Source: Flavobacteriales bacterium
GTDB taxonomy: Bacteria; Bacteroidota; Bacteroidia; Flavobacteriales_D; Sanyastnellaceae
DNA: 64,000 nt
Assembly: GCA_018402085.1 (NCBI GenBank)
Contig: JAGYJM010000002.1
Span: 620,001 to 684,000 of the forward strand
Direction of reading: 5' to 3'
The notes under the pieces are model-generated. The model was given only the letters and a program-made list of their open reading frames with translations, had not been told where the DNA came from and did not search any database. Positions 5,324 to 43,066 of this stretch are shown here, one piece after another. Both the position numbers and the translations under genes were made by a program. Position 1 is the first letter of the stretch; each line of letters begins with the position of its first letter.

Positions 5324-7636
5324 ATGAAATATTTCTACAGCATAGCTGCGTTTCTTGCAGTGGCTTTTATCTCATTATCATCACAAGCTGCGTTTACCGG
5401 TCTTTCTTCTGAGATCGTCGCTGTTGACGGTGTCACAGGAATGACAACCTACCGTGTATACGCAGATTTTGATGACCCCAATGATCAATTGATTTCTTAT
5501 TACGGGCTCGATTCTGCTCCTATGGAAGTGATCGTAGGTACGAGCTTGTACCAGAACACGGCTTTTGGAGGCGCGACGTCTCTGGCCATCAACACCTTGC
5601 TGTTTCCCTCGTTCCCTGATCTGGAGTATGACAGCTGGTTTGCGCTGGGGCTCGACTCTCAGACGGGCAACAATATGCAATTTGTAGGCTTCGACTTCTC
5701 ATCATTTGAGGCAGGTGGCAGTATGATTGTCAATGACATCGTAGGAGGCACCATCTTTGTTCTCCCCGGTGAGCCGCAGGCACTGCCGGTTGGCGGACGA
5801 GTCCTGATCGGGCAGTTTACCACAGACGGGACGATTGATTTCCTGATGAACGTCCAGTGGCGTGACAGCAACAATGTCAGCTTTCAAAATGAAGGGCTGA
5901 CCCTGAGCCTGCCTCAGGCCAATCCCGGCTGTACAGATCCTGATGCGGATAACTTTGATCCTACGGCAACGGAGGATGATGGTTCTTGCACCTATCCTGC
6001 GCCCAGCTTTTCAGGACTGACCTGGGAAACGGTAGCTACAGGTGTTGCAGGAGGCAGTTTTAACACCTACCGTGTGTATGCAAACTTCAGCAATCCGCTG
6101 GATCAGCTCACGGCCGTATACGGACAGGATGTAACGCCTCTTGAAATCACATCTACCGGTTCCTTCTTCCAGCAAACTTTGCTTTCTGGTCCTTTTTCCA
6201 CTGATTACAACCCGGCCGATATAGGCATCGACCCCGATGTGCAATATGATTCATGGGTAACCATTGGTGCAGAAGACGTAAATAACAACAACCTACAAAG
6301 CCTGAACGTTGATGCCAGCACCTTTGAAGCAGGTGGTGACCTTATCGTAAACTCAGCAACTGGCGGCGCATGGTTTGTATTCCCAGACGATCAGCCGGCA
6401 GCCTTTCCTGATCCGAGCGGACGTGTGCTCGTGGCGCAGGTGACAACAGATGGGTTTGTTGACCTTACCCTCAACCTCCAATACCGCGCGCAAGACGGAA
6501 CCAACCCGCAGGAGACCAACCTCCAGTTAAGTTTCCCTCCTCAAATCCCAGGGTGTACTGATCCCGAAGCGTGTAACTTTAACCCAAGCGCCAACGAAGA
6601 TGACGGTACGTGTATCTTCCCTGACGGATGCACCGATTCAGCCGCTTGTAATTTCGATCCTGCTGCACAATGCGATGACGGCTCTTGTATCCTTCCTGAT
6701 GGATGTACCGATGCAGCCGCTTGTAACTTCGATCCTGCAGCAACTTGTGATGATGGCTCGTGTATCCTCCCTGACGGGTGTACCGATGCCGCGGCCTGCA
6801 ACTTTGACCCTGCTGCGCAGTGCGATGACGGCTCGTGTATCCTCCCTGATGGATGTACTGATGCCGCGGCCTGTAACTTTGACCCCGCTGCACAGTGCGA
6901 TGATGGCTCATGTATCCTTCCTGATGGATGTACCGATGCAGCCGCCTGTAACTTTGACCCTGCAGCGACTTGTGACGATGGTTCATGCATCCTGCCTGAC
7001 GGATGCACCGACTCAGCGGCTTGTAACTTTGATCCTGCCGCCCAGTGCGATGACGGCTCATGTGTACTCCCAGACGGATGCACCGACTCAGCGGCCTGTA
7101 ACTTTGACCCTGCAGCACTTTGCGACGATGGTTCATGTATCCTGCCTGACGGGTGTACAGATCCCGGAGCCTGCAACTTCGATCCTGCTGCGCAGTGTGA
7201 CAACGGAAGCTGCGAGTTCGTGAGCTGCGCAGGCTGCACAAATCCAAATGCTGATAATTACGACCCTTCTGCAACCATTGATGATGGCTCTTGTGTGGTA
7301 GGTGGTTGTACGTACGAAGCTGCAACTAACTTCGACCCGGCAGCGACCGTTGATGATGGCTCATGTCTCTTTGATGATAGCTGCGCCGGACTTGTATTTG
7401 GTTGCACAGACCCTGCAGCATTCAACTTTGATCCTGCAGCGAACACTGACAATGGTGGATGTATTGCCGTGCAGCCGGGATGCATCGATCCGGCTTTCTC
7501 TAACTTCAATCCTTATGCAAATACTGACGATGGCAGTTGCGCAAATACATGTATTGGCGATCTGAATAATACAGGTGAGGTCAATTCTGCTGACCTCCTG
7601 CTCTTCCTTGGTTCCTTCGGAACAGTTTGTCAGTAA
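5324..7636 (+). CDS. Secreted modular protein: two copies of a shared beta domain, 14 Cys/Asp repeats and a dockerin-like end
   Basis: 770 residues with a signal peptide (cleavage after SQA, about residue 22). Residues about 24-200 and 226-405 are two copies of the same domain (TYRVYA, D-S-W, FEAG, GRVL followed by TTDG), which also appears alone at 42449-43066 and at the N-terminus of 38383-41454. From about 203 and again from 408 come fourteen repeats of the form CTDxxACNFDP..DDGSC, probably disulfide- and calcium-stabilised; eight are near-identical 75-bp units. The C-terminus (GDLNNTGEVNSADLLLFLGSF) resembles a single dockerin type I calcium loop rather than a T9SS sorting domain. Function unknown; a surface or released adhesin/structural role is inference. 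Confidence 0.85.
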   Translation: MKYFYSIAAFLAVAFISLSSQAAFTGLSSEIVAVDGVTGMTTYRVYADFDDPNDQLISYYGLDSAPMEVIVGTSLYQNTAFGGATSLAINTLLFPSFPDLEYDSWFALGLDSQTGNNMQFVGFDFSSFEAGGSMIVNDIVGGTIFVLPGEPQALPVGGRVLIGQFTTDGTIDFLMNVQWRDSNNVSFQNEGLTLSLPQANPGCTDPDADNFDPTATEDDGSCTYPAPSFSGLTWETVATGVAGGSFNTYRVYANFSNPLDQLTAVYGQDVTPLEITSTGSFFQQTLLSGPFSTDYNPADIGIDPDVQYDSWVTIGAEDVNNNNLQSLNVDASTFEAGGDLIVNSATGGAWFVFPDDQPAAFPDPSGRVLVAQVTTDGFVDLTLNLQYRAQDGTNPQETNLQLSFPPQIPGCTDPEACNFNPSANEDDGTCIFPDGCTDSAACNFDPAAQCDDGSCILPDGCTDAAACNFDPAATCDDGSCILPDGCTDAAACNFDPAAQCDDGSCILPDGCTDAAACNFDPAAQCDDGSCILPDGCTDAAACNFDPAATCDDGSCILPDGCTDSAACNFDPAAQCDDGSCVLPDGCTDSAACNFDPAALCDDGSCILPDGCTDPGACNFDPAAQCDNGSCEFVSCAGCTNPNADNYDPSATIDDGSCVVGGCTYEAATNFDPAATVDDGSCLFDDSCAGLVFGCTDPAAFNFDPAANTDNGGCIAVQPGCIDPAFSNFNPYANTDDGSCANTCIGDLNNTGEVNSADLLLFLGSFGTVCQ
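6623..7222 (+). repeat. Eight in-frame 75-bp tandem repeats
   Basis: Units begin at 6623, 6698, 6773, 6848, 6923, 6998, 7073 and 7148, each starting with the codons for DGCTD and encoding 25 residues with four cysteines. They differ mainly at synonymous positions and at S/A and Q/T/L substitutions, with the last unit most diverged. The high identity makes this a likely site of length variation between strains. Confidence 0.9.
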
Positions 7637-27409: not shown

Positions 27410-30400
27410 ATGTTCAGAAACAGCTTAACCATTGCGTTTGTCTTGATTTTTGTACTCGGAGCTTCTTCCATGAGTGCCCAACTCGTGTTGAACGAATTTT
27501 CGATCGCAAACTATGATGGCTTCCAGACTGGAGGAGACTACGAAGATTGGGTCGAAATCTACAATCCGACAGGCGCCGCGATTGACGCAGGAGGCTATTT
27601 CCTGAGCGATAACCCGGCGAATCCAACAAAATTTGAAATTCCGGCAGGGAATAATGTGCCCGCCGGTGGGTATTTGATCATTCTTCTGACCAATGATTAC
27701 GATGCTGACCCCTTTATGTATGGTTACCTAAACACTACGTTCAGAGTGAACCAGACACAAGGCGAATCCGTGATCTTCGCTGACCCGGGAGGTGCCATAC
27801 TCACTGAATGGGCATTCGGTACAGTTATCTCCCCAAATCAACGCAATCACAGCTATGGACGCATCGGCGACGGCGCGGCTGATTGGGGAATTTTCACGAA
27901 CCCAACCCCGGGCGGAAATAACGGAACTAACGCATTCACAGGTTACGCAGCTGTCCCGCAATTTGATACCGATGCAGGTTATTTTGCCGGAGGCTTGACC
28001 GTCGGCATATCAGCCGAACCCGGTTCGGATATTTACTACACCACCGATGGTACAGACCCTGATCCCGGTGATCAGCTTTATACCGGTCCGATAACCGTAG
28101 ACCAGACAACGGTCATCCGTGCGATTGCCTACCCCAACGACGGTGATCTACTTCCCAGCTTTGTTGAAACTAACACCTATTTTACCGGTGACGACCAGCA
28201 CAGCGTCATCGTATGCAGTGTGTCAGGACCAACGCTTAGCGATGGAGAGTGGTTCGGAGACGAATTCATGGCCATTGAAATGTTCCACCCGAACGGAGAG
28301 TTCTGGACGGAAGCCGCCGGTGACTCAAATGAGCACGGAAACGATTCAAATGCCTACGGACAAAGAGGTTTTGACTACGTAGGCCGAGATGAATTGGGCT
28401 ACAAACACGAGATCGATGAACAACTCTTTCATGTGAAAGAACGCGATCTCTATCAACGCCTCATATTCAAGGCTGCGGCCAATGATAATTACCCCTTCGA
28501 ACCCGGTGCGCACATTCGGGATGCTTTTGTGCAGACCCTTTCACATAACGCCGAACTTCGACTAGATGAACGTACCAATGAAAGCTGCATCGTTTATATT
28601 AATGGCGAATACTGGGGCGTTTATGAGTACCGCGAGAAAGTGGATGATCTCGATTTCACAGAAGAATACTACGACCAAAGCCGTCACTTCGTAGACTTCA
28701 TCAAAACATGGGGTGGAACATGGGAAGAGTATGGCTCAATCGATGACTGGAATACGCTCGTTGATTTCATCATGACCAACGATATGTCTGACCCGGCCAA
28801 CTACGATTATGTAGAATCAGTGCTCAATACCCGCAGCCTTATTGACTACTTCATCCTCAACTCTTATATTGTATCTGCTGACTGGCTGAACTGGAATACC
28901 GGCTGGTGGCGAGGACGTCACCCTGACGGTGACGCAAAAAGATGGCGCTACATCCTCTGGGATATGGATGCCTCATTTGGTCACTATATAAACTATACAG
29001 GAGTGCCCGATACCGGTCCGTCAGCTGCCCCATGCAACCCTGAAACGTTAAATGATCCCGGTGGGCAAGGGCATACAAATATATTCAATGCCCTAATGGA
29101 GAATGAAATCTTCTTCTCCGACTACATTAACCGATGGGCAGACCTCAATGCATCTTACTTCAGTTGTGACTACATGAATTTCCTCCTCGATAGCATGATC
29201 AATGTGATCGAACCGGAAATGACACGCCAGTTTGAACGCTGGGGCGGATCATACGCCGGCTGGCAAGGTGAAGTCGATGAACTCTACAGTTTCATCAATG
29301 AACGATGCCCGAACGTGTCAGAAGATGACGATGTGCTCGATGAAGGAATCGTAGATTGCTACGATGTTGAGCCGATTACCATCACCATCATCATTCAGGG
29401 ACTTGGCGAAGTAGAAGTAGAAGCCTTCGACGTTACACCCGATATGATTCCCTGGGAAGCAACCTATTACGCTAACCTACCCATCGATCTTGACGCCGAA
29501 GAAGACCTCGAAGGCATCTTCTTGTACTGGGAAGTCATTGAAGGTGACCTGGTCATTGACGACATCAATAACCCTGATATTCAAATCACGCCAAGTGGCG
29601 ATGTTACCATCGTTGCTTGGTTTACGGATAACATAGAACCTCAACCAGTCATGTTCGACGTGCAACCTGAAGGCGCAGGAGATATTCTCGTGGCCGCCCA
29701 ATCGGTAGCACCTTACCCCAATACCATTATTGTTGAGGGAGGGCTCAATACCTTTGAGGCGGTTCCGGAAAACGAATGGTTCGTGTTCTCGCATTGGGAA
29801 ACCATTCATGCCAATATGATGCCTTCTGACGAAGACCCTGAAACTACCGCCATGATCGCTCTGCCCGATACAGTTGTCGCTGTTTTTGAAGAGTTACCTA
29901 ACGCAGAACTTTACGTAGATGTGCAACCTCCGGGAGCCGGGTGGATCACTATTGATGGCACTGAAATCGCGACTTATCCGCTCCTCGATACGCTCGCCGC
30001 TGAACAAGATTTTGTCTTCCAGACGGGAGGGGGGGATCAGTGGACCGTTTTCTCTCATTGGGAAGTCAATCATGCACCGATTAACCCTGATGAATTTGCT
30101 GAACAGATTACTCTTAATTTCTCGCAAGATGATACCGTTATAGCCGTCTACGAGATTATCCCGAATTACACAACAACCGTTCGCGTCGAACCGGCTCAAG
30201 CCGGACGAGTACTTGTGGCGGATCAGTTGATGGTTGAAGATGAGTGGACGGGGCAGCTCGAAGGTGATACTCCTCTGAACTTCCGCGCTCAGGCTGATCA
30301 ATTCTGGTTCTTTGACTCCTGGGAAGCAGTCTACCATGCGCCTGATGGCGGCGCAGAAGCGCCGGATGTTGAATTCACCCTGAACATTCCGGACACGATT

Positions 30401-30712
30401 GTTGCACATTTCGTGGAAGAACCGTTCAATGTATTCGTGCCAAATAGCTTTACACCAAATAATGACGGTATTAACGATGTATTCAAAGCTGAAGGGTCAG
30501 CTTGGGAACCAGGATCCTTCGAGATATGGATATACAACCGTTGGGGACAACTGGTCTACAATAGCACAGACCCTGAAGAGGTGTGGCTCGGTAACGCCAA
30601 TCAGGGTACGCACTATGTGGAAGATGAGATTTATGTCTATCGCCTGCATGTGAAGTCAGTTCACAGGGTAGAACCGCAAGAGTATTCCGGACATATTACG
30701 GTCATAAGATAG
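27410..30712 (+). CDS. Secreted CotH-domain protein with lamin-tail domain, InlB-like repeats and T9SS type B sorting domain
   Basis: 1100 residues. Signal peptide (cleavage after MSAQ, about 24). Order of parts: lamin-tail domain (about 25-160, LVLNEFSIANYDGF, DWVEIYNPTG), a chitobiase-type Fn3-like segment (about 190-255, IYYTTDGTDPDPG), a CotH kinase-like domain (about 265-620, NGEYWGVYEYREKVDD, ILWDMDASFGHYIN), four beta repeats of about 88 residues (655-1008) each built around a W/HWE motif (SHWETIHAN, SHWEVNHAP, DSWEAVYHAP), and a CHU_C/gliding-type sorting domain from 1010 (PNSFTPNNDGINDVF, YNRWGQLVYNS). CotH proteins phosphorylate spore coat or surface proteins; the target here is unknown. 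Confidence 0.88.
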   Translation: MFRNSLTIAFVLIFVLGASSMSAQLVLNEFSIANYDGFQTGGDYEDWVEIYNPTGAAIDAGGYFLSDNPANPTKFEIPAGNNVPAGGYLIILLTNDYDADPFMYGYLNTTFRVNQTQGESVIFADPGGAILTEWAFGTVISPNQRNHSYGRIGDGAADWGIFTNPTPGGNNGTNAFTGYAAVPQFDTDAGYFAGGLTVGISAEPGSDIYYTTDGTDPDPGDQLYTGPITVDQTTVIRAIAYPNDGDLLPSFVETNTYFTGDDQHSVIVCSVSGPTLSDGEWFGDEFMAIEMFHPNGEFWTEAAGDSNEHGNDSNAYGQRGFDYVGRDELGYKHEIDEQLFHVKERDLYQRLIFKAAANDNYPFEPGAHIRDAFVQTLSHNAELRLDERTNESCIVYINGEYWGVYEYREKVDDLDFTEEYYDQSRHFVDFIKTWGGTWEEYGSIDDWNTLVDFIMTNDMSDPANYDYVESVLNTRSLIDYFILNSYIVSADWLNWNTGWWRGRHPDGDAKRWRYILWDMDASFGHYINYTGVPDTGPSAAPCNPETLNDPGGQGHTNIFNALMENEIFFSDYINRWADLNASYFSCDYMNFLLDSMINVIEPEMTRQFERWGGSYAGWQGEVDELYSFINERCPNVSEDDDVLDEGIVDCYDVEPITITIIIQGLGEVEVEAFDVTPDMIPWEATYYANLPIDLDAEEDLEGIFLYWEVIEGDLVIDDINNPDIQITPSGDVTIVAWFTDNIEPQPVMFDVQPEGAGDILVAAQSVAPYPNTIIVEGGLNTFEAVPENEWFVFSHWETIHANMMPSDEDPETTAMIALPDTVVAVFEELPNAELYVDVQPPGAGWITIDGTEIATYPLLDTLAAEQDFVFQTGGGDQWTVFSHWEVNHAPINPDEFAEQITLNFSQDDTVIAVYEIIPNYTTTVRVEPAQAGRVLVADQLMVEDEWTGQLEGDTPLNFRAQADQFWFFDSWEAVYHAPDGGAEAPDVEFTLNIPDTIVAHFVEEPFNVFVPNSFTPNNDGINDVFKAEGSAWEPGSFEIWIYNRWGQLVYNSTDPEEVWLGNANQGTHYVEDEIYVYRLHVKSVHRVEPQEYSGHITVIR

Positions 30713-38382: not shown

Positions 38383-41300
38383 ATGAAAAAAACTATACTG
38401 TCTGTAATTGGCATACTCACCTGTCTGGTAGCATTGGCTCAGCCAACAGGGCTATCCGTAGAATATTATCAGGTTCACTATGGTGAGGTGAATGGCGTTG
38501 ACCTTGATGGGTACGTCACCTACCATGTTTTTCTTGAAATGACCAATGAAGATGATTTCCTTTCTGCGATATACGCATTTCTGGGAGTAGATGAAAACCC
38601 TGACAGTGAAGACATTGAAATACTAACAGATTGTGCTTGCTACAATAATGACGATTTTGGCGTCTTTTCCGGGGGGATCAATTCTGCACTAATCCCTACT
38701 TTCCCGGAACTTGATTTTGATACATTCTGGACAATCGGCAAACAATACATTAGTGAACCCGGAGAAGTTTCCTTTGTAGTCGCGAATCCCAACCCGTTTG
38801 ATGATTCAGATCCATGTGAAGCCTGGATTGATGACGGCGCACTGTTTTCTACCTTCGGTCAACCAAATGCTTTCGCGGGGCCGGACGAACGCTTACTCAT
38901 ATTACAAATCACCACGTGCAGCGAAGAATTTTGTGTCGATTTTTGCACTCAGACCTTCGTGGACGGAGTGCAAGCAGACCAAGATTTTACCTGCTTTGAT
39001 CCGGTTTGTTTTCAGAATCCTTGTTCAGCCAATCCGCTACCGGCTGACATCAGCGTGGTAGATGAGATTCTCTGCCAGGGCCAGGAGGCTACCATTGAGG
39101 TCAACCCTGGAGGAAACGGTGATGTTACCTATGAGCTGTTTACAATTGATGGTAATGATGCGTTATTGGTGGCCTCTCAAACCGGCGACCCCTTGTTTGA
39201 CGGAGTGGAGGCAGGAGACTACTTCATCGCAATGACTGATGATGTTGGCTGTCGTGATACAATCGCAGATATCAGCTTTACAGATCCCCCGGGGCTCAAT
39301 GTTTCGGTAGAGCTTACTGCAGATAATGTATGTGGTGACGAAAACACCGCTGAAATTTGTCCGACAATCAATGGCGGACAACCGCCCTACACTATAGAAC
39401 TTATCGCAGCTGATGGCTCATCACAATCGGTCAACGAAGGTGAATGTTTTTCGGGCGTGGCCTGTGTGAATGGAGACGGTACTTTCACGGTGGTGGTGAG
39501 CGATCAAAGCGGCTGTACCTTTGAAGAAGATATTGCGATCAACTGCCCTGAAGCAATGGGTATAGAGGTCATGGTTGATCCTATTTTCTGCAATGGCGAT
39601 GGCAATGCAGAAATAAACTTTGATGTCACCGGAGGCACGGGTGCTATAAACGTATCGCTTGATGTGCCAGATTTTACATTTGACGCGCAAGAAGCCCCGT
39701 TCACGGAAGTTGTTTCGGACGTCGCACCGGGCAATTATACGCTCACACTTACCGATGCGAACGATTGTGTGCTCGAAGAAACGATTCAGATCATAGAGCC
39801 GGATCCGCTCGATGTGGCTTTTGATGCGACGGATATCGCGTGCTTTGGTAACTGTGATGGTGTCATTTCAGCAGATGCCGACGGAGGAACTCCTCCGTAC
39901 ACTTTAACCGTGACAGATGGTGACGGCAATGCCGTTGATGAAGAGGCCCTTTGCGCAGGTACCTATACCGCGACCATAACCGACGACAATGACTGCCAGG
40001 TGAGTGAAACACTGGAGATCATTGAACCGGATGAAATCACCTTTGAAATTGCGAGCTCAGATATTTCTTGCTTTGGTGCAGGTGACGGACAAATCTGCGT
40101 GACCAACGTCGCTGGTGGTACAGGCCAGGTGCAGTGGGCCATTACGTCACCCCCCTCTGAAGCTACTGATCCCGGAACCACTGAGTGTTTCGATATGCTC
40201 TCTGCAGACACCTACGTGATTACCTTTTCGGATGAGGCAGGTTGTGAGATTACAGAGACAGGTATCGTCTTGAACGAACCTGAAGAATTGACGATAGTGA
40301 CCAATGTGAATGGCATCTCCTGCTTTGGTTTCAATGACGGAAGTGTGGAAGTTTCAGCGACGGGCGGAACAGGTCAGGTGTCTTTAACGGCTCCCGAGGC
40401 TGCACCGTTGCCCTACACGGTGGCAGATCTTCTGCCCGGTGAGGTGACGCTGGTTATTCAAGACGAGACCGGCTGTGAAGACAGCGAAACGATTACCATA
40501 GAAGAGCCGATCTCCGTTGAAATTGAAGTGCTCGCTGTGAACGATATCTCTTGCGGTGGTAATTGCAATGGCGCTGTAGAACTTGACTTAAGCGGCGGCA
40601 CAGGTGAATTGGCACTCTTCCTCAATGGAGAGCCCTCTGTGCCTACCGGACTATGCGCCGGAGAGTATGAGGCCATTGTGGTTGATGAGAACCTCTGCCA
40701 GGATACGGCATTCTTTGAGATTATCCAGCCGGACCCAATTGAATTCCTGATTGATGTAGATAATGTCACTTGTACCGGAATGAATGATGGCTCTGTGAAT
40801 GTGTTTCCAACAGGCGGGCAAGGTGACATCACCTGGGAAGTTTTACAGGATGTTGACATCAATAACTTGTTTGAAGGTACCTACACCATTAGTGGGGTAG
40901 ATTCTACCGGATGCACTGCAGACACAACCTTTACGGTAAATGCTGACATTACTGCTGACATTGAAGTTGAAATTTTCACCTCACAGGTAACCTGTTGGAA
41001 TGAATCTGACGGAACAGCCACGGCCGCAGTCACCGGAGGCTCACTTCCGATTAATTACACATGGAATGATCCGAACGGACAAACTACCGCCACTGCAGTG
41101 GGTCTGTCTGAAGGTGTATACTCCGTTACGGTGACGGATGCCATCGGCTGCACGCTTAGCTTCCTTGCTGAAGTTGAACCTACACCGGGATGCTTTTTCA
41201 TCGCCGACGTCCTCACTCCGAATGGTGATGGGGCAAACGATGAATGGATCATTGGCGGACTGGAGTTTTTCCCGAACTCAATGGTGCAGGTATATAACCG

Positions 41301-41454
41301 ATGGGGGCAATTGCTCTTTGAGTCAAGAGGCTACAATACGCGGTGGGACGGAATGTGGAATGGCCGACAGTTGCCGGTTGCTGACTACTATTACGTGATT
41401 ACCTACGACGAAACGCAGGATCCAATCACCGGAACCGTGACCATTAAATACTGA
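38383..41454 (+). CDS. SprB-like surface protein with T9SS type B sorting domain
   Basis: 1023 residues. Signal peptide (about 1-19, ends LALAQ). Residues about 22-205 are a diverged copy of the domain seen in 5324-7636 and 42449-43066 (VTYHVFLEM, DFDTFWTIG, DERLLILQITT). Residues about 225-925 hold seven to eight SprB repeats, each with a C-x-G-x-x-D-G start, a GGTG turn and a VTDxxxC-like end. The last 85 residues are a CHU_C/type B sorting domain (VLTPNGDGANDEW, YNRWGQLLFES, WDGMWNGRQLP). Exported by T9SS and probably displayed on the surface. It overlaps the SprF-like gene by one base, so the two are co-translated. Confidence 0.92.
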   Translation: MKKTILSVIGILTCLVALAQPTGLSVEYYQVHYGEVNGVDLDGYVTYHVFLEMTNEDDFLSAIYAFLGVDENPDSEDIEILTDCACYNNDDFGVFSGGINSALIPTFPELDFDTFWTIGKQYISEPGEVSFVVANPNPFDDSDPCEAWIDDGALFSTFGQPNAFAGPDERLLILQITTCSEEFCVDFCTQTFVDGVQADQDFTCFDPVCFQNPCSANPLPADISVVDEILCQGQEATIEVNPGGNGDVTYELFTIDGNDALLVASQTGDPLFDGVEAGDYFIAMTDDVGCRDTIADISFTDPPGLNVSVELTADNVCGDENTAEICPTINGGQPPYTIELIAADGSSQSVNEGECFSGVACVNGDGTFTVVVSDQSGCTFEEDIAINCPEAMGIEVMVDPIFCNGDGNAEINFDVTGGTGAINVSLDVPDFTFDAQEAPFTEVVSDVAPGNYTLTLTDANDCVLEETIQIIEPDPLDVAFDATDIACFGNCDGVISADADGGTPPYTLTVTDGDGNAVDEEALCAGTYTATITDDNDCQVSETLEIIEPDEITFEIASSDISCFGAGDGQICVTNVAGGTGQVQWAITSPPSEATDPGTTECFDMLSADTYVITFSDEAGCEITETGIVLNEPEELTIVTNVNGISCFGFNDGSVEVSATGGTGQVSLTAPEAAPLPYTVADLLPGEVTLVIQDETGCEDSETITIEEPISVEIEVLAVNDISCGGNCNGAVELDLSGGTGELALFLNGEPSVPTGLCAGEYEAIVVDENLCQDTAFFEIIQPDPIEFLIDVDNVTCTGMNDGSVNVFPTGGQGDITWEVLQDVDINNLFEGTYTISGVDSTGCTADTTFTVNADITADIEVEIFTSQVTCWNESDGTATAAVTGGSLPINYTWNDPNGQTTATAVGLSEGVYSVTVTDAIGCTLSFLAEVEPTPGCFFIADVLTPNGDGANDEWIIGGLEFFPNSMVQVYNRWGQLLFESRGYNTRWDGMWNGRQLPVADYYYVITYDETQDPITGTVTIKY

Positions 41455-42392
41455 TGACGATGAGAAAGTTACTGATCACGTTCGGTGTGCTCCTGATGGC
41501 CGTGTCTTCAGCCGATGCGCAACAGTTGGCGCGCCGTACGCAATACATTTTCAATACATACCTCACCAACCCGGCGGTGGCGGGAACCAAACTTTACAGC
41601 CCCATTGCAGCTTCGTACCGCAGCCAGTGGGCAGGTTTCGATGGTGGACCACAAACCTACCTTCTGAGCGGACACACAAATTTGCCGAACAACCGCATTG
41701 GGGTCGGTGGAATTTTTTATCACGACAATACGGGAGGCGCGATTGCTCGAACAGGAGCTGAACTGACAGGTGCCTATCACGTTGACCTGAACAATCGTGA
41801 CGCTGTCTCTTTCGGTTTGAGTGCACTGTTGAATCAATTCAGTTTTGATGGCGAAGACCTCACCTATCTCGATCAAAACGATGAAGCCCTGATCAATGCC
41901 ATGGAGTCGTCGTTCAACTTTGACGCCAGCTTCGGAATGATGGTATATGGTCCGAACTACTTTTTTGGCTTTAGTATCCCGAATCTGATCCAGACTGAAC
42001 TCGGGTTAGACGGCGTAATTGACGAAGACAACCAGAATGTGAGGCACTACAATTTCATGGGGTCTTACCTCTATTTCTTCAATGACGACTTTGCGATTCA
42101 ACCCTCCGCACTGGTGCGATTCACCGGCGCGACACCGGTTCAGTTCGATATGCTCATGAAAGGAGTTTATCAGGAAACCATCTGGGTAGGTCTCGCGTAC
42201 CGCCATCAAGATGCCGTAGCGCTTGCCCTCGGGGTAGAGTATGAGCAATATGCGATCGGCTATTCTTATGACCTCACCACCACCAATGCACGTAATTTTA
42301 GTCCGCATACACACGAAGTTACCATCGCTTACAATATCCCGAGAACGCGCGGGTTTCAACGTAAACCAATACGTCGACGAGGATTTAGGTAA
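41454..42392 (+). CDS. PorP/SprF family type IX secretion membrane protein
   Basis: 312 residues (or 310 from ATG 41460). Signal peptide ends near ADAQQ. The rest is an outer-membrane beta-barrel of the PorP/SprF family: TQYIFNTYLTNPAVAGTK, SYRSQWAGFDGGPQTY, HTNLPNNRIGVGG and GLAYRHQDAVALALGVEY are family hallmarks. SprF proteins are needed for export or attachment of their neighbouring type B T9SS cargos (SprB in Flavobacterium johnsoniae). Here it directly follows such a cargo, so a dedicated pair is likely. Confidence 0.94.
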   Translation: MTMRKLLITFGVLLMAVSSADAQQLARRTQYIFNTYLTNPAVAGTKLYSPIAASYRSQWAGFDGGPQTYLLSGHTNLPNNRIGVGGIFYHDNTGGAIARTGAELTGAYHVDLNNRDAVSFGLSALLNQFSFDGEDLTYLDQNDEALINAMESSFNFDASFGMMVYGPNYFFGFSIPNLIQTELGLDGVIDEDNQNVRHYNFMGSYLYFFNDDFAIQPSALVRFTGATPVQFDMLMKGVYQETIWVGLAYRHQDAVALALGVEYEQYAIGYSYDLTTTNARNFSPHTHEVTIAYNIPRTRGFQRKPIRRRGFR

Positions 42393-42448
42393 GCCGCGAA
42401 TGAGTTTGGCAAAATCTTTGATAAACCTTGACTAAAACGATTACTGAT

Positions 42449-43066
42449 ATGAAGAATATCTTACTCCTCCTCGCAGGAACAATGATGGCTTTCGGAGCCT
42501 CAGCGCAATTCCTGAGACTGCAAATTGAAGAAGTACCAAACAGCGGTCAGGTGCCCGGTACCACTTATCGTGTATACGCGGTGATGATGAATGAAGGGGA
42601 TATCATTGATGCCGTATTCGCTGAAGAAGGCAGTCCGCTGGAGCTGATAAGCACGAAACCATTTTACCAGCACCCGAAAGGCGGCCCCCTTTCGATAGAT
42701 GTGCAGCGTTTTGATCTGCAAAATGACGCGAAGCTGACCTATGATACCTGGTTTACCATCGGCGCGATGGATAACTACAATAATTATGTGATGGCTTTCC
42801 AGATGGATACCCTTGCCTTCAAAACCTTTGAATCAGGCCAAAACTTTTCAACGGTAAAAAGCGCCTGGTTCGTGACCCCCGATAAGCGACAGGCCATGGC
42901 TGATATGAATGGTCGTATCCTGCTGATGCAGTTCACCACTGCCGGTAGAGTTACCGGAAAGCTCAACATTCACGGTCGCACGCGCGCCACCTTTGATGAT
43001 AATGGCGACGTCATCGAAGGCAATGAAGTGATTGAAGTACGCGGAATTGAGTTTACCGCAGGCTGA
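42449..43066 (+). CDS. Small secreted protein of the shared beta-domain family
   Basis: 205 residues from ATG 42449 (MKNILLLLAG; the frame is open from 42428). Signal peptide ends at SAQ (about 19). The whole mature protein is one copy of the domain found twice in 5324-7636 and once in 38383-41454: TTYRVYAVM, PLELIS, YDTWFTIGAMDNYNN, FESGQNF, GRILLMQFTTAG. No sorting domain. It is the third gene of the cassette after the SprF-like protein (56 nt), suggesting a role together with the SprB-like cargo. Its stop abuts the msrB stop with no spacer. Confidence 0.8.
   Translation: MKNILLLLAGTMMAFGASAQFLRLQIEEVPNSGQVPGTTYRVYAVMMNEGDIIDAVFAEEGSPLELISTKPFYQHPKGGPLSIDVQRFDLQNDAKLTYDTWFTIGAMDNYNNYVMAFQMDTLAFKTFESGQNFSTVKSAWFVTPDKRQAMADMNGRILLMQFTTAGRVTGKLNIHGRTRATFDDNGDVIEGNEVIEVRGIEFTAG

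Follow-up and report, generated by a model that had tools for sequence, protein, structure and literature searches.

A small protein without a sorting domain is linked to a type B T9SS cargo and its SprF-family carrier and shares a distant domain with the cargo's N-terminus

Gene content of the locus

The window, meaning the whole stretch of DNA that was analysed, comprises 64,000 nucleotides (positions 620,001 to 684,000, forward strand) of contig JAGYJM010000002.1, assembly GCA_018402085.1, from a Flavobacteriales bacterium of the family Sanyastnellaceae whose genome (3.78 Mb) is in two contigs. Three consecutive genes in it, here called A, B and C, encode a type B cargo of the type IX secretion system (T9SS), an outer-membrane carrier and a small protein with a single domain, of a kind also present at the N-terminus of A (A-N). 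Numbered from the first base of the window, the features are:

38383..41454, + strand: A, 1023-residue type B T9SS cargo with a signal peptide (read by eye), an N-terminal beta-sandwich domain, SprB repeats and a C-terminal type B sorting domain
38440..39027, + strand: A-N (A residues 20-215), N-terminal domain homologous to C by hhalign and modelled with AlphaFold2 (AF2); cysteine-rich subfamily
41200..41445, + strand: A residues 940-1021, CHU_C / type B sorting domain
41454..42392, + strand: B, 312-residue PorP/SprF-family outer-membrane carrier; cysteine-free chain with a basic C-terminal tail
42449..43066, + strand: C, 205 residues, a Sec-type signal peptide (read by eye) followed by one domain, with no T9SS sorting domain and no lipobox cysteine
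42506..43063, + strand: C residues 20-205, the mature single domain, same family as A-N

A and B share 1 nt (41454) and a gap of 56 nt (42393-42448) separates B from C, as a preliminary description made from the sequence had reported; its naming of A as an SprB-like type B cargo and of B as SprF-like is borne out by Pfam and NCBIfam profiles. A bears SprB repeats (PF13573, expectation value (E) 1.6e-32) and a type B C-terminal sorting domain (CTD; TIGR04131, 1.1e-20; PF13585, 1.5e-22). B, directly downstream, matches PF11751 (8.6e-70) and TIGR03519 (8.1e-74), the latter spanning the whole chain (positions 1-292 of 292). Searches of Pfam and NCBIfam up to E 1 gave no family for C, T9SS sorting domains of types A, B and C included, and in its AF2 model the chain stops at the last strand of the domain. 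The signal peptides of A, B and C, with putative cleavage before Q, were read by eye; the presumed signal-peptidase site of C, Q20, is invariant in 30 sequences. C had been taken for a surface protein, a location left unsupported because it combines a Sec-like signal with no T9SS sorting domain; lacking that domain, it is also rejected as an ordinary T9SS cargo. Retention in the periplasm, or export as a piggyback passenger, appears likelier.

Conservation of the gene order

C is present in 86 of the 114 genomes of the window's family that were searched (85 at E<1e-60, plus G518), and an SprF gene lies within 400 nt upstream of it in 80 of these. Among the remaining six, three (G028, G478, G490) have SprF directly upstream on closer reading, and in three (G027, G482, G507) C begins at a contig end, so that in all 83 testable genomes C comes directly after SprF (82 of 82 without G518). 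A separate set of 80 loci came from named metagenome-assembled genomes (MAGs), mostly titled Flavobacteriales, Bacteroidetes or Crocinitomicaceae; the titles Chryseobacterium gleum and Euryarchaeota look like mislabelled bins. There, SprF immediately precedes 60 of 63 C orthologues, the other three starting at a contig end, and none of 17 loci of a type A paralogue family. A search of 60 relatives found no matches at E<=1e-5 outside the window's family.

Seven genomes have an SprF hit and no C. Two of them (G466, G479) are at contig ends, G466 with a C fragment behind SprF, and the other five make up part of genus g20, considered below. The other C-less genomes include seven of genus g4, four of g20 and several incomplete assemblies. 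The preliminary description had proposed a three-part unit, and had named rarity of SprF beside homologues of C as the sign against it; the neighbourhoods support the proposal in both genome sets, and A-B-C is established as a conserved three-gene unit. One locus (L084, G008) has tandem A genes (1031 and 1040 residues) followed by a single SprF and a single C.

The shared domain

In a two-sequence BLASTP comparison C matches A at E 4e-6, with 31 of 119 positions identical, partly within the signal peptides. With only the mature parts compared, the Smith-Waterman score is 80, where shuffles average 30.3 (standard deviation 4.7) and none of 2000 reached it; for seven stretches further along A the score is 26-34. 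Profiles of 64 C sequences and 44 A-N sequences align in hhalign with probability 99.4 (E 8.2e-22, 167 columns) in local mode and 99.7 (192 columns, 20% identity) in global mode. A profile of C orthologues alone finds the N-terminus of the upstream type B cargo at E<1e-3 in 65 of 74 rows with a complete A; these rows come from two source sets with overlapping genomes, and the window's A is counted twice. Of the nine misses, G033b (416 residues) is a different cargo and the other eight belong to a single divergent group or fall close to it.

AF2 models both C (predicted local distance difference test (pLDDT) 88.9, predicted template modelling score (pTM) 0.83) and A-N (pLDDT 86.6, pTM 0.86) as beta sandwiches. 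Apart from helices and split strands, their strand order matches, in a comparison of order only. Cysteine content differs: all 44 A-N sequences have four to nine, and 34 of 64 C sequences have none (mean 0.6). C and A-N share a real but distant domain, and the similarity first noticed in the letters holds up when profiles are compared and is in keeping with the fold models.

Paralogues and the origin of C

The domain occurs in 12 genes of the window's genome, A and C included (14 matches at E<=1). The preliminary description called C a copy of the cargo's N-terminal domain; the homology stands, and "copy" does not, since identity is about 20% and A-N is one of the poorest matches to C that the genome contains, ranking eleventh of the 12 in one search and last in another. 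The best paralogue is a 328-residue type A cargo (C2:1823210, E 4.9e-31, versus 0.0025 for A's domain). Of the ten domain genes other than A and C, five were tested with NCBIfam and all five have a type A sorting domain above cut-off.

C and A-N form separate clades (Shimodaira-Hasegawa-like approximate likelihood ratio test, SH-aLRT, 96 for C and 92 for A-N) in a tree built from 106 thinned domain rows. A second tree with other families added agrees in grouping C with a type A cargo family, so called from the one member tested. Constraining C to join A-N is worse by 30.9 log units, with a borderline result in the approximately unbiased (AU) test (p-AU 0.0496), all on quick trees. We therefore reject an origin of C by duplication of the N-terminal domain of this A, given the separate clades, the type A sister family and the borderline test; the derivation of C from this cargo that the earlier wording implied finds no support in either tree.

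One more domain protein lies in the window itself, at 5324-7636: 770 residues with two domain copies, DDGSC-type repeats and a dockerin-like tail in place of a CTD. It matched no Pfam family at E 0.01.

The domain in other families

A class-wide profile search, scoring eight candidates per genome, matched 42 of 395 genomes, 39 of them outside the family; 20 stretches from 19 matched genomes were examined. CTDs were called there with an in-house profile, NCBIfam being applied to L213 only. Fifteen of the 20 stretches encode one CTD-less domain protein of 258-291 residues each, accompanied in 14 of the 15 by CTD-bearing copies of the domain. Regular expressions found a TonB-dependent receptor in 12 of the 20 (one confirmed by Plug and by TIGR01782, the latter below cut-off) and a protein with a dockerin-like tail in 18 (the single one checked in Pfam had no hit). 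SprF, sought with the profile of B orthologues, is in four of the 20, and is absent from 12 of the 15 that have the CTD-less protein. Further domain proteins without a CTD hit run off the stretch in L209 (550 residues), L225 (977) and L227 (1086), and L215 has one of 227 residues.

The recurrent cassette (L209-L228) consists of:

the CTD-less domain protein
domain proteins of 355-370 and about 450 residues with type A CTDs
a TonB-dependent receptor of about 1020 residues
a Fib_succ_major protein of about 250 residues
a dockerin-tailed protein
a domain protein of 1000-1300 residues

A proposed role for C

We propose, tentatively and at less than even confidence, that C is a dedicated partner of A, acting on the domain type that both contain and occupying the slot held by PorE-like anchor genes in a type B T9SS adhesin unit. 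The computed basis is the conserved linkage, the shared domain, the lack of a CTD and the slow sequence change of C. The main reason for preferring a role directed at A is that in other families the CTD-less copies are tied to domain-bearing cargo, not to SprF.

In the proposed mechanism, A-B-C would be an adhesin unit inherited vertically. A would pass the outer membrane through the T9SS and be held by its CTD to the carrier B, as is known from the families, so that A-N would be the part farthest from the membrane. C would enter the periplasm by Sec and, having no sorting domain, remain there or exit only as a passenger on A. By binding the common domain type it may hold or assemble the tip domain of A before or during export, from the gene slot taken by PorE-like anchors at other carrier loci. 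On the sequence evidence, C is likely the third working part of a secretion unit described to date with two parts or a different third part.

Rates of change are consistent with such an arrangement. Mean pairwise identity, taken across 42 loci, comes to 0.59 in C, 0.51 in B, 0.40 in A-N and 0.64 in the last 90 residues of A; in UvrA it is 0.62 (30 of the 42 loci). The slow change of C would suit an internal protein and the fast change of A-N an exposed one. Distances correlate with those of UvrA at 0.92 for C, 0.94 for B, 0.81 for A-N and 0.31 for A's CTD.

Several observations weigh against a partnership of C with A. (i) There is no co-evolution of C and A-N beyond the species signal in a mirror-tree comparison (partial r 0.11 after UvrA). 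(ii) A-N is not the nearest group to C; that place is taken by the type A cargo family (319-417 residues; type A by its one tested member), with support of 93 in the first tree and 96 in the second. (iii) The divergent A-N group (L154, L155, L156, L158, L159, L163, L169, G012) is missed by the C profile (E 0.07-0.9). (iv) Genus g20 has an SprF hit in five of nine genomes and C in none; at the one locus read, in G021, a divergent A-B pair stands without C, and a GSDH-type cargo and a TonB-dependent receptor come after it instead. (v) In a quick tree C stays apart from the CTD-less proteins of other families, and absence of the CTD probably has more than one origin. (vi) The basic C-terminal tail of B is conserved in its orthologues, which a partner of B would explain equally well or better.

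A more general reading, about which we are doubtful, is that some T9SS surface systems may use a CTD-less, single-domain "self" copy of a cargo domain as a dedicated homotypic assembly or piggyback subunit, at least twice, in A-SprF-C and in the TonB-receptor cassettes.

Alternative roles

The tail of B brings in the closest rival, in itself unlikely, though less so than those after it: C may be a periplasmic partner of B that replaces PorE as anchor or plug through B's tail, its likeness to A-N being secondary. Sixty full tails of B orthologues share a basic end, most like RILxRNRIVK, and unlike the PR[FY]F that ends five of the six own-genome carriers preceding PorE-like genes. SprF-family tails thus possibly hold a code for the periplasmic partner, and the basic tail of B could be the handle of one, with C the obvious candidate; this is why we keep the reading as a close rival. 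The window's own B, however, ends in RKPIRRRGFR, off the common form. The slot itself also speaks for a partner of B. Of 15 SprF loci in the genome, six have a PorE-like protein as the next same-strand gene, all six with an OmpA domain, and two have a protein with an FGE-sulfatase domain (GldJ/GldK-like by position and domain, a name assigned here). The PorE-like third gene has been linked, partly as speculation, to static anchoring in the available portion of PMC12618676, and C, without a CTD, would by default be on B's periplasmic side. Against this, Pfam found no OmpA-type peptidoglycan-binding domain in C, nor among the matches of 54 members of its domain family, and the related CTD-less proteins elsewhere mostly have no SprF gene in their stretches.

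Two observations on other loci belong here. At the SprF locus G000:C2 3315685-3316587 (L195), the cargo appears as two overlapping frames with SprB-type sequence, perhaps a frameshifted gene or two genes. The window also contains, some 8 kb ahead of A at 27410-30712, a protein with a type B CTD, a CotH kinase domain and no adjacent SprF gene, an "orphan" type B cargo.

Less probable again is a shared ligand: the domain would bind a small ligand or glycan, displayed outside by A, with C as the periplasmic copy that receives or buffers it. The cassettes of other families, pairing CTD-less and CTD-bearing copies with a TonB-dependent receptor, suggest this, as does the receptor behind the A-B pair of G021. 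The A-B-C unit itself, however, has no TonB receptor, the best own-genome homologue of the cassette receptor lying about 56 kb away, and no PDB relative suggestive of a ligand was found.

Finally, we think it improbable that C is merely co-transcribed and functionally unrelated, its linkage being vertical inheritance of a stable neighbourhood: C, B and A-N do track the species signal, MsrB- and UvrA-sized genes adjoin in many relatives too, and a promoter-like site (42428-42457, 9 of 12 matching) stands just before C, but where testable C never occurs without an adjacent SprF though the genes upstream of A vary, and A-B-C is the only one of the 15 SprF loci with the domain in the cargo or next gene. 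At one other of these loci a type A cargo with the domain is encoded three genes away. The promoter-like site is one of 12 (shuffles 6.5, standard deviation 2.4); two terminator-like sites were found (shuffles 4.8), none in the B-C gap. In the window, msrB and uvrA lie downstream of C on the opposite strand.

Comparison with known folds and systems

The domain matches no Pfam or NCBIfam entry and no solved relative was found, yet a dozen genes of this genome contain it, as does a recurrent TonB-receptor cassette elsewhere. With Pfam run on 54 family members up to E 5, the best match had E 0.018 and no family emerged. Sequence searches of PDB gave nothing for C and a chance-level coat protein hit for A-N (E 0.033), and Foldseek with both models had no PDB match at E<=0.001. 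The best VIA-align Z scores, 6.5 for C and 6.4 for A-N, are to immunoglobulin-like (Ig-like) folds and within the common-fold range; cohesin structures score a Z of about 5, alongside unrelated Ig-like folds, and neither C nor A-N has a cohesin Pfam hit. The beta-sandwich fold as such is shared with Als3, MSCRAMMs, ApaG, adaptin ears and cohesin, with no sequence match to them.

Like A-B, SprB-SprF of Flavobacterium johnsoniae is a type B cargo with SprB repeats and an SprF-family carrier directly next to it. The genes reportedly form a sprC-sprD-sprB-sprF operon. F. johnsoniae SprF has a CXC motif, whereas B is cysteine-free and CXC is absent from the last 40 residues of all 60 orthologues read. 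In the accessible part of PMC12635249, this motif, in the periplasmic C-terminal tail, links SprF to the gliding track, and no counterpart of C appears there at SprB-SprF. Since CXC is absent, B is not a gliding-type carrier and A-B is rejected as a gliding SprB-SprF pair.

Closer to A-B-C are PG1035-PorP-PorE of Porphyromonas gingivalis and Fjoh_3952-3951-3950 of F. johnsoniae, described in the portions available of PMC9143113 and PMC12618676 as a type B cargo, a PorP/SprF carrier and a periplasmic third protein, whose gene in F. johnsoniae directly follows the carrier's. The authors of PMC12618676 connect this third gene, in part speculatively, with static anchoring, mobile adhesins being without it. 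As far as the open-licence PMC texts available go, type B adhesins are described as cargo and carrier, or with a PorE anchor, and no third gene like C was found among them. C would be a third gene of another kind: the third protein is a PorE-type peptidoglycan binder in the P. gingivalis and F. johnsoniae systems and a one-domain relative of the cargo's N-terminus in A-B-C. Kept across most of the family without the export signal of a cargo, it may offer a handle on how such an adhesin is held, assembled or loaded.

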